NCBI GenBank assembly: GCA_002898315.1
Contig: BEHV01000019.1
Location: forward strand, 1-29,658
Reading direction: 5' to 3'
Origin: a bacterium HR19
Lineage (GTDB): Bacteria > Calescibacteriota > Calescibacteriia > Calescibacteriales > Calescibacteriaceae
Length of the DNA stretch: 29,658 nt
In this document: in pieces, positions 8,580 through 11,280 of the stretch
Layout of the letters: the number at the start of each line of letters is the position of its first letter
How positions within the stretch are numbered: the first letter of the stretch is position 1
Notes under the pieces: model-generated
Told to the model about the DNA's origin: nothing
The model's database searches: none
Seen by the model: only the letters and a program-made list of their open reading frames with translations
Position numbers and translations under genes: made by a program

Positions 8580-9426
8580 AAATCCCGAAAAACTACTTGA
8601 AGGGAAGGCAATAGTGGTAACAGGTGGTGGAGGAGGAATAGGTTCTGAGGTATGCATGTACCTTGCAAAACTCGGAGCAAAAATTCTTGTGAGCGACCCC
8701 GGCACAGACATAGAAGGGAAAGGTAGAAACCCGACCATTGCAGAAAGCGTGGTTGAGAAAATAAGAGAAGAAGGAGGCATAGCTTATCCGAACTACGATA
8801 GTATAACATCGGAAGAAGGAGCAAAAAACATCGTAAAAAATGCTGTTGACCTCTTTGGGAAAATAGACGGACTTGTAAATTGCGCGGGAAACATAAAAGA
8901 TGCTTTCACACTTGATATGACTCTGCAGGATTTTGAAAATGTTCTAAAAGTAAATCTCATAGGTGCGTTTTTGATAGGAAGAGAGTGCCTTCGGGTCATG
9001 GTTGAAAAAGGTATAAGTGGCAGTATAATAAACATGACATCTGTTGCGGGAATACTCGGTAATTGGGGGCAGGCAAATTTCGCATCAGCAAAAGCAGGAC
9101 TCATAGGTTTGACAAAAACTTGGGCTATTGAGTTTGCAAAATACGGTATAAGAGTAAATCTCATCGCACCGACCGTCAAAACACGCATCACAAAGACCAT
9201 ACCATTCTTCAAGTCAGAAGAAGAAGATATGCTCCACCCAAAGCATGTCGCTCCCGTCGTCGCCTTCTTGCTCTCAGACCTCTCAAGAGAAATAAACGGA
9301 GCTTTGATAGCAGTATATGGAACAAAACTTTTCTCCTTCCATATAGTTCAGACAGAAGGAGCGATGAAAAAAAGTATGTGGAATCCATACGAAATCAAAG
9401 ATAAGATAAAAACAATATTTGAGTGA
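8557..9426 (+). CDS. Short-chain dehydrogenase/reductase with catalytic Tyr replaced by Phe
   Basis: This is a Rossmann-fold SDR of 289 residues (from ATG 8557). It has the dinucleotide loop TGGGGGIG (22-29), NCAG (108-111), the active-site Ser162 in NMTSVAG, and GQANFASAKAG (172-182). The motif should read Y-x-x-x-K, but here Phe175 (codon TTC) stands in place of Tyr while Lys179 is kept. Without the Tyr hydroxyl a normal hydride-transfer cycle is doubtful. The GQANxxxAKAG context and the long C-terminus resemble hydroxyacyl-CoA dehydrogenase-like SDRs. The start overlaps the end of the polynucleotide kinase by 23 nt, and the stop overlaps the methyltransferase start by 4 nt (GTGA), so translation is probably coupled. 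TTG at 8548 is an alternative start. Ile codons are mostly ATA (about 24 of 31 by hand count), as in most neighbours. Confidence 0.85.
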   Translation: MDKKNGVENPEKLLEGKAIVVTGGGGGIGSEVCMYLAKLGAKILVSDPGTDIEGKGRNPTIAESVVEKIREEGGIAYPNYDSITSEEGAKNIVKNAVDLFGKIDGLVNCAGNIKDAFTLDMTLQDFENVLKVNLIGAFLIGRECLRVMVEKGISGSIINMTSVAGILGNWGQANFASAKAGLIGLTKTWAIEFAKYGIRVNLIAPTVKTRITKTIPFFKSEEEDMLHPKHVAPVVAFLLSDLSREINGALIAVYGTKLFSFHIVQTEGAMKKSMWNPYEIKDKIKTIFE

Positions 9427-10355
9427 GAAAAATCGCTATGGCAGATGCAAATATAAAGACATATCATAAATTGATATTTGGAGATAGCGAAAATATGAAA
9501 GAACTACCGGATGGTAGCGTACATCTTGTAGTTACAAGCCCGCCATACTTTAATGCCCCTTTTGATTATCCAGACCTATTTGAAAGTTATGAAAAATATC
9601 TTGATAAAATGACCAAAGTTGCAAGAGAGATAAAAAGAGTATTAGCAAAGGGAAGAATTGCCTGTATCGTCTGCGATGATATATTAATAGACGGGAAAAA
9701 ATATCCAATCGTAGCAGACCTTACAAAAATTTATATCAACGAAGGGTTTATATATCGTGATAAAATTATCTGGATAAAACCAGAAGGTTATATTCGTATA
9801 AGTAGGAGGAGCGGAGTTATCTTGCAACATCCATTCCCTATGTATTTTTATCCTGATAACATGCAGGAGACAATACTGATTTTTCAGAACGGCAAATTTG
9901 ATTATAAGAGCATTCCTGAAAAAGCAAAAGAACAATCAAAAATAGATATTTCAGAATATCAAACGAAAAAGTGGTATCTAAATATCTGGAATATTGTTAA
10001 TGTTCTACCTTTAAAAAATCGTGCAGAAAATGGAATAGCAGCGTTCCCAGAAGAAATACCATATAGACTTATAAAGCTCTTCTCTTTTATTGGTGAAACG
10101 GTTCTTGATCCGTTTATGGGATCGGGCACAACAAACAAAGTATCTGCGATGTTAAAGAGAAATAGTGTAGGATACGAAATTGATTTGGAGTTGCTTGAAG
10201 TTGTTAAAGAAAAAATGAAATTAAAGTATGCAAGAATATTAAAAGATTACGAAGTTGAAATCATCATAAGAGATGATGCTAAATATCTCAGAACTCAACT
10301 ACAAAACAAAGTTTCGGTAAAAAATGCCAGAAAAAATTCAAAAAGGTCTCTCTGA
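9423..10355 (+). CDS. Beta-class site-specific DNA methyltransferase (N4-cytosine or N6-adenine)
   Basis: This AdoMet-dependent DNA methyltransferase has motif order IV then I, the beta class. Motif IV is TSPPY (38-42) near the N-terminus. Motif I is LDPFMGSGTT (228-237), preceded by AAFPEEIPYRLIKLFSFIGE, the usual lead-in for this class. TSPPY is the form common in N4-cytosine enzymes, but some N6-adenine enzymes share it, and the target cannot be read from sequence. The 310-residue length is normal. It starts at GTG 9423, overlapping the SDR stop by 4 nt; ATG 9438 is an alternative. The next gene overlaps its 3' end by 32 nt. Ile codons are less ATA-biased than in flanking genes (about 15 of 34), which may mean transfer. 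No restriction endonuclease of a known type is adjacent. Confidence 0.88.
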   Translation: MRKIAMADANIKTYHKLIFGDSENMKELPDGSVHLVVTSPPYFNAPFDYPDLFESYEKYLDKMTKVAREIKRVLAKGRIACIVCDDILIDGKKYPIVADLTKIYINEGFIYRDKIIWIKPEGYIRISRRSGVILQHPFPMYFYPDNMQETILIFQNGKFDYKSIPEKAKEQSKIDISEYQTKKWYLNIWNIVNVLPLKNRAENGIAAFPEEIPYRLIKLFSFIGETVLDPFMGSGTTNKVSAMLKRNSVGYEIDLELLEVVKEKMKLKYARILKDYEVEIIIRDDAKYLRTQLQNKVSVKNARKNSKRSL

Positions 10356-11280
10356 TAAGGAAAAAGAAGAGCTACTTTCAATTTTAGAAGAACAAGGTAA
10401 AACTAAATGGAAGGAAAGATGGAAAAATCATATCTCTTTCCCAAAGAATCTAAACCCACTTTTAAAAGATAAAGATGAACAAGAAAAAGTCCTCAGATAT
10501 CTGCTGTTTAGGGTCTTGATCAATCAACAAGCAAAATCCGAAAAAGTCAGAGAACTATCGGTAAAGGTAGCTGAAAAATTCGGTGATAAATTGCTATTTG
10601 AACCTTATGAAATTTCAGAGCTGAAATTATTTGAAGTTTTTAAAAGCGTAGCAAGAGACAAAGGTTCACTTTTATATAGAGTTGGAGCACTTGGAGGAAT
10701 AAAGCCAATTTCACTATTTATTTATCGCTTCAAAGCATACGAGGGTTTTATTAAATGGTTGAAAACAACTAAGCAATCCTTCCTTGAACTTATCATTATT
10801 CAATTGCAAAACAAAAAAGCACTTGATTTATTTAAATTCTTGAACAGCCATCCCATTCTTGAAGCTGGCTGGGTAGGAAATGATCCAAAAGCTTGCAGAA
10901 TGCTTGTAAATTGGATTATTTTTCTTCTTAATGAGATATGGGGAACAGAAATATCAAAAACGGAAGATACTTTAATGATAGTTGATGGACATGTTGCCAA
11001 AGTGTTTTGTAGGACAGGATTGTTAGACAAAGTTCTTTACGAAAAAAAACGACCATTTATTATCCAAGCAAGCAAAATGAGAAATGAGATTGAAAAAACT
11101 GTATCACAATTCGGGAAAATCCCCTTTTATGTTGATAACGGTGCATTTTATATTTTTGAAGATGGTTTCTGCACAGATTTAAAACCCAAATGCGAAAGTT
11201 GTCCGATAAATAAAATATGCAAGAAATATACAAAGTGGACAGCGTATCAGAAGATCAAGAAGAAGGAAAAGAAAAAATAA
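10324..11280 (+). CDS. HhH-GPD/endonuclease III-like protein with 4Fe-4S loop, paired with the methyltransferase
   Basis: The 318-residue protein is a diverged member of the HhH-GPD DNA glycosylase superfamily. Residues 185-192 (GNDPKACR) stand where Nth has its helix-hairpin-helix and carry Lys189 where the catalytic Lys would be. MIVDGHVAKVFCR (218-230) matches the catalytic-Asp stretch (Asp221). The C-terminus has a complete iron-sulfur loop C283-x6-C290-x2-C293-x5-C299. The hairpin itself is degenerate, and residues 1-180 have no close resemblance to Nth. ATG 10324 lies within the methyltransferase gene (32-nt overlap), so translation is probably coupled. Only about 6 of 26 Ile codons are ATA, against about 24 of 31 in the SDR upstream, a sign of transfer. 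The role may be removal of lesions from deaminated methylated bases (as for the Mig.MthI glycosylase next to a methyltransferase) or restriction by base excision. Neither can be decided here. Confidence 0.75.
   Translation: MPEKIQKGLSDKEKEELLSILEEQGKTKWKERWKNHISFPKNLNPLLKDKDEQEKVLRYLLFRVLINQQAKSEKVRELSVKVAEKFGDKLLFEPYEISELKLFEVFKSVARDKGSLLYRVGALGGIKPISLFIYRFKAYEGFIKWLKTTKQSFLELIIIQLQNKKALDLFKFLNSHPILEAGWVGNDPKACRMLVNWIIFLLNEIWGTEISKTEDTLMIVDGHVAKVFCRTGLLDKVLYEKKRPFIIQASKMRNEIEKTVSQFGKIPFYVDNGAFYIFEDGFCTDLKPKCESCPINKICKKYTKWTAYQKIKKKEKKK

Follow-up and report, generated by a model that had tools for sequence, protein, structure and literature searches.

A beta-class DNA methyltransferase gene coupled to an HhH-GPD/Fe-S protein gene: a candidate restriction glycosylase in the slot of a type II restriction enzyme

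The gene pair and its methyltransferase

The window, a stretch of 29,658 nucleotides from the bacterium HR19 (contig BEHV01000019.1), contains a DNA methyltransferase (MTase) gene overlapped at its 3' end by the gene of a glycosylase-like protein, hereafter the HhH protein. The features of the pair are as follows.

9423..10355, plus strand: MTase gene, beta class, probably N4-cytosine (Pfam N6_N4_Mtase, E = 4e-46)
9534..9548, plus strand: MTase motif IV, TSPPY, residues 38-42 (from the sequence; invariant in MTase alignment A2)
10107..10133, plus strand: MTase motif I, DPFMGSGTT, residues 229-237 (from the sequence)
10324..10355, plus strand: overlap of the MTase and HhH genes, 32 nt (ORF coordinates)
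10324..11280, plus strand: HhH-GPD/Fe-S glycosylase-like protein, 318 aa, proposed restriction glycosylase (AlphaFold fold of the endonuclease III/AGOG/MutY type; family alignments A1 and A3)
10660..10758, plus strand: family-specific segment, residues 113-145, KGSLLYRVGALGGIKPISLFIYRFKAYEGFIKW (without a counterpart in the aligned Nth; gap in hhalign)
10888..10890, plus strand: Lys189, candidate Schiff-base lysine (falls on the HhH lysine of Nth in the alignment; unvarying wherever a sequence covers it)
10984..10986, plus strand: Asp221 of VDGH, candidate catalytic Asp (aligned with the Nth VDTH Asp; invariant in all 10)
11170..11220, plus strand: 4Fe-4S loop C283-x6-C290-x2-C293-x5-C299, residues 283-299 (letter-by-letter check)

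The ORFs, their coordinates and overlap, the beta-class MTase motifs, Lys189, the VDGH Asp221 and the cysteine loop had been described in a first-pass annotation, and all were confirmed when checked on the sequence. The GTG at 9423 overlaps the stop of the upstream gene, and alignment with relatives indicated that the ATG at 9438 is likely the true MTase start. At the other end of the gene, the 32-nt overlap makes translational coupling of the MTase and HhH genes plausible.

The MTase was assigned to the beta class because TSPPY (motif IV) precedes DPFMGSGTT (motif I). A TSPPY motif points to N4-cytosine as the target. The enzyme appears to belong to the MTase subfamily of SuaI-type restriction-modification (R-M) systems, with 50 to 71% identical relatives accompanied by a PDLC03572-type partner at eight loci, the tie to SuaI running via the profile of the partner restriction endonuclease (REase) and not via the M.SuaI sequence itself. 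The first-pass annotation had proposed either an N4mC or an N6mA mark; the motif and the SuaI-type relatives together indicate that the mark is probably N4-methylcytosine (m4C). The R-M system of Sulfolobus acidocaldarius is SuaI/M.SuaI, which modifies GGCC as GG-m4C-C (PMC5809426). The generic MTase family PDLC03353 was too broad as a search model, most of its matches being about 30% identical and without an REase or HhH match.

Members of the subfamily were also observed in viruses. The Sulfolobus viruses STSV1 and STSV2 (L030, L032, L033) carry an orphan MTase, annotated as an N4-cytosine methylase, with 65% identity to the window MTase; it probably serves as anti-restriction against SuaI-type or HhH-type systems. 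On another viral contig (L034:4321-5373) the gene adjoining a subfamily MTase resembles a SIR2-domain protein, possibly a further defence partner.

Fold and predicted active site of the HhH protein

The HhH protein was only faintly recognised by sequence. Its match to Pfam HhH-GPD (PF00730) had an E value of 0.012 and 16.4 bits (cut-off 26.2), the match to NCBIfam mutY (E = 1.6e-5) was far under the cut-off, and that to EndIII_4Fe-2S was weak. The sole PADLOC match, also weak (0.0018), was to a 221-aa model labelled type II nicking endonuclease. The best phmmer match in the PDB was Mig (1kea, E = 0.09), and a profile search of PDB sequences with the HhH family returned weak matches only, ROS1 among them.

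The AlphaFold (AF2) model, computed from an input alignment of 10 sequences, had a pLDDT of 85 and a pTM of 0.85. In structural alignments it matched endonuclease III (Z of about 15), Mig.MthI (13.6), AGOG (13.0) and ROS1 (12.5). This fold and the alignment of Asp221 with VDTH place the protein in the HhH-GPD superfamily: it is a complete member, Fe-S loop included, and forms its own separate family. Membership of the HALFPIPE (PabI) family was ruled out, the model being almost all-helical HhH-GPD. The model also matched the queuosine-salvage protein DUF2419 (Z of 14.8, level with endonuclease III), where K199 and D231, named in PDB titles, are likewise spaced by 32; this resemblance possibly connects the HhH glycosylases that act on DNA with those that act on nucleosides.

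The HhH hairpin is atypical, and the position of Lys189 comes from a profile alignment (hhalign) with an ordinary Nth, not from superposition. Since both the Lys and the Asp are kept, the protein is predicted to be a bifunctional glycosylase/AP lyase. The Lys-Asp spacing in the family is 32, the same as that of the AGOG pair K140/D172 (PMC3397491), whereas in Mig.MthI Tyr126 lies 18 positions from the Asp of VDAN. The four cluster cysteines were invariant in every homologue covering them. Within the family-specific segment, residues 121-140 formed the best conserved block of the HhH family (94%), and the segment may act as a DNA-recognition element, reading the DNA sequence. The gene was found to be under purifying selection, with dN/dS (omega) of about 0.09 to 0.13 where dS was unsaturated.

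Distribution, exchange with an endonuclease and decay

All five complete HhH genes, mostly from metagenome-assembled genomes (MAGs), lay directly 3' of, and overlapped, an intact subfamily MTase gene. Apart from that of the window they come from two bacterial MAGs (L002, L003), from a MAG of Euryarchaeota (L004) and from G148, whose copy is diverged, and overlaps of 23 to 35 nt were observed in these four and in G639. A further HhH gene, in a Thermoplasmata MAG (L005), lies on a contig that ends before the MTase position. This recurrent linkage supports the idea of the first-pass annotation that the two genes form a dedicated MTase and glycosylase system, although an orphan MTase with a repair glycosylase would produce the same linkage. 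The annotation had set co-occurrence as a check in advance, naming an HhH gene mostly without an MTase neighbour as grounds for refutation, and every complete copy had the MTase directly upstream.

The pair recurred at 63 to 75% protein identity across unrelated bacteria and archaea, and this identity indicates horizontal transfer of the pair. The genes flanking it were unrelated between hosts, which belong to different phyla, except for sister species. The cassette looks mobile, since the SDR gene that precedes it in the window occurs in two relatives (G001 and G003) without an adjoining cassette. Recurrence of the overlapping pair, together with purifying selection, argues that the association is not due to chance. 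No HhH homologues were found in the viral contigs, plasmids or phages scanned. Upstream of the L003 pair, a 587-aa ORF (L003:1979-3742) weakly matched, in its N-terminal part, a model for type IV methyl-directed REases, and these surroundings are possibly a defence island.

Across the MTase subfamily the downstream slot was occupied either by an HhH gene (10 loci, in any state) or by a type II REase gene (8 loci). The first-pass annotation had noted that no standard restriction nuclease is adjacent. This is true of the window, but G001, of the same genus, has an REase in exactly that slot: its MTase is 71% identical and overlaps by 4 nt a gene of 352 aa that matches PADLOC PDLC03572 with an E value of 5e-101. 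The same order of MTase and PDLC03572 REase was found in G596, G428, G445, G390, G863 and G978 and on one viral contig. HhH and REase were never found together at a locus (Fisher p = 0.004, relatedness ignored), and PDLC03572 was found nowhere in any of the 12 HhH genomes. Among 14 control genomes it matched one, that of S. acidocaldarius. Absence of a cognate-family REase from every HhH genome ruled out the HhH protein as the guard of an intact R-M system. The earlier alternatives, left on an equal footing, had been that the glycosylase either protects methylated sites or cuts unmethylated ones; since the HhH gene takes the REase slot and never accompanies an REase, cutting is favoured and protection disfavoured.

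A 13-row clade of the MTase tree (support 87/85) held every HhH-type MTase and two REase-type sequences, the other REase types lying outside. Replacement of the REase by the HhH protein would be expected to give such a grouping, which, read at clade level, suggests exchange on one MTase lineage.

Several copies of the cassette were found to be damaged. In three genomes the HhH gene was broken and the MTase intact: in the sister species L006/G064 the HhH gene had lost its start and suffered a deletion of about 273 bp and a frameshift; G147 was the second; and in G639 residues 111-191, Lys189 among them, were lost in frame. Both genes were broken in G292 and G293. No intact HhH gene without an intact MTase was seen among the loci found. 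A similar asymmetry is known for R.PabI, where R is often disrupted and M is not (PMC4615327). This pattern fits a toxic R with a protective M but fits a losable repair partner too, and we regard it as supportive, not decisive. G149 lacks an MTase of the subfamily; behind its N-truncated HhH remnant (L055:3224-3706) comes another MTase, of N6/N4 type.

Candidate target site and competing readings

Avoidance of short sites was computed on fetched genome stretches. The median observed/expected ratio of GGCC was 0.13 in HhH-type genomes (n = 10), with values of 0.01 to 0.02 in G062 and G148, whereas the 17 controls gave 0.84 and REase-type genomes 0.49. GGCC was also low in some cases outside the HhH genomes (G003, 0.46). 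TCGA was as depleted as GGCC in most HhH genomes, but because G061, G063, G639 and most REase genomes are exceptions, GGCC is the more consistent site candidate. We treat GGCC as a lead to the MTase site, since several tetranucleotides are avoided, maybe through other R-M systems. In the window's own genome (G000, stretches L104-L113) TCGA, CTAG, GATC, ACGT and GGCC were all strongly avoided, which suggests several past or present R-M systems.

Our preferred reading, which we hold to be fairly probable, is that the cassette is an R-M system in which a glycosylase/lyase with the HhH-GPD fold, restricting by base excision, has taken over from the endonuclease. The comparisons establish the pairing of the genes, the predicted fold and its invariant residues, the exchange in the slot and the mutual exclusion of the partners, the asymmetry of decay and the avoidance of GGCC; glycosylase/lyase activity, target site, target base and restriction in the cell are inferred. 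As in the SuaI family, the MTase would modify a short palindromic site, most likely to N4-methylcytosine within GGCC, and the HhH-GPD/Fe-S protein would recognise the same site when unmethylated, flip out a base and excise it with Asp221. Lys189 would then break the strand by beta-elimination, and heat or AP endonucleases may complete the breaks, so that invading DNA is destroyed. An ancestral endonuclease of SuaI type, encoded behind this MTase, would have given way to the glycosylase.

A close functional parallel is R.PabI/HALFPIPE (PabI, HpyAXII, CcoLI), which shares the proposed logic of sequence-specific base excision at unmethylated sites, an MTase neighbour and an AP-lyase end step; there, too, R is often disrupted while M is not, and R-M loci undergo exchange (PMC4615327, PMC10273834). 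The two differ in fold (HhH-GPD with Fe-S here, HALFPIPE in PabI) and in the MTase, which here is of the beta class with a likely m4C mark and probably a GGCC site, and in PabI is of the gamma class with m6A and GTAC. SuaI, acting on GGCC with m4C, shares the MTase subfamily, and related cassettes carry the REase family matched in S. acidocaldarius; in the window and its relatives the HhH protein stands in the endonuclease slot instead. AGOG, Nth and MutY have the fold and the Lys/Asp pair in common with the window protein, with the spacing as in AGOG and the Fe-S loop as in Nth, but the window protein differs in its weakly recognisable sequence, extra conserved segment and strict MTase linkage. 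The Brig1/2/3 defence glycosylases likewise provide glycosylase-based immunity, but with other folds and without an MTase.

Restriction glycosylases have been described with the HALFPIPE fold (PMC10273834), and no other fold is known for base-excision restriction. Among the openly accessible papers searched, none paired HhH-GPD with restriction-modification. The functional kind is thus known, and the HhH-GPD molecular version appears to be undescribed. We put at slightly better than even the chance that the family makes up another class of restriction glycosylase, independent of the first, in which an endonuclease III-like HhH-GPD/Fe-S protein has become the methylation-inhibited, sequence-specific effector of a type II-like R-M system and has replaced a SuaI-type endonuclease behind the same m4C MTase; the cognate MTase neighbour of such a class was present for all five complete HhH genes. 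If so, base-excision restriction would use two folds, HALFPIPE and HhH-GPD, repair and restriction enzymes would interconvert, R and M would be exchangeable across unrelated chemistries on one MTase, and a sequence-specific glycosylase would act on a normal base, unusual for HhH enzymes.

The main rival is repair as by Mig.MthI, the G:T/U mismatch glycosylase of pFV1, with the HhH protein clearing the base left by deamination (U or T opposite G) from MTase-marked sites and so preventing mutation. Mig.MthI, too, is an Fe-S HhH-GPD glycosylase encoded within the R-M locus of a thermophile. The phmmer result points to it, as does the PADLOC model, whose 221 aa are the length of Mig.MthI; U/G is a Mig substrate (PMC2714593), and deamination of m4C would yield U. 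We nevertheless consider this rival unlikely, because the family has Lys where Mig has Tyr126, the mark is apparently m4C (TSPPY) rather than 5mC, and the HhH gene is absent wherever the endonuclease is present. The pFV1 mig gene accompanies a complete R-M system, with an intact NgoPII-family endonuclease and a C5-type cytosine MTase, whereas the HhH family occurs behind a beta-class MTase and only where the endonuclease is missing. The Lys-Asp spacing also differs, and Mig.MthI lacks the 113-145 segment of the 318-aa window protein. Neither Tyr at the Lys position nor a C5-MTase R-M system with endonuclease neighbours, by which a Mig.MthI protein would be known, was found for the window protein.

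A less probable rival still, to which we give little weight, supposes an MTase orphaned by loss of its endonuclease and takes the HhH protein for a hitch-hiking general repair or regulatory protein. Subfamily MTases of viruses (STSV1/2, L034, L035, L037) are indeed orphans, and the general GGCC avoidance in some relatives agrees with an orphan MTase. Against this stand repeated co-transfer of both genes between bacteria and archaea, to different sites and with the overlap conserved, and the strict alternation with the REase in the slot together with purifying selection on the HhH gene; a general repair role is further disfavoured by a separate, ordinary Nth-type repair gene in the window. Least credible, and in our judgement very improbable, is a glycosylase of the ROS1/DME kind whose target would be the methylated base itself, as a demethylase or against methylated invaders: ROS1/DME share the superfamily chemistry (Lys, Asp, Fe-S) and ROS1 was both a weak sequence match and a structural match, but these enzymes act on 5mC and related bases, every complete HhH copy is coupled to an MTase, and an eraser next to an active MTase would turn on the DNA of its own host.

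The Nth gene of the host itself, at 376-1280 on the minus strand of the window, was found to be split: about 65 bp are duplicated in tandem and shift the frame. The ACAACCATATTAGCTGTTTTTC... unit, which carries the KIKGIGRKTANMVV motif, is present twice, through either real mutation or assembly error.
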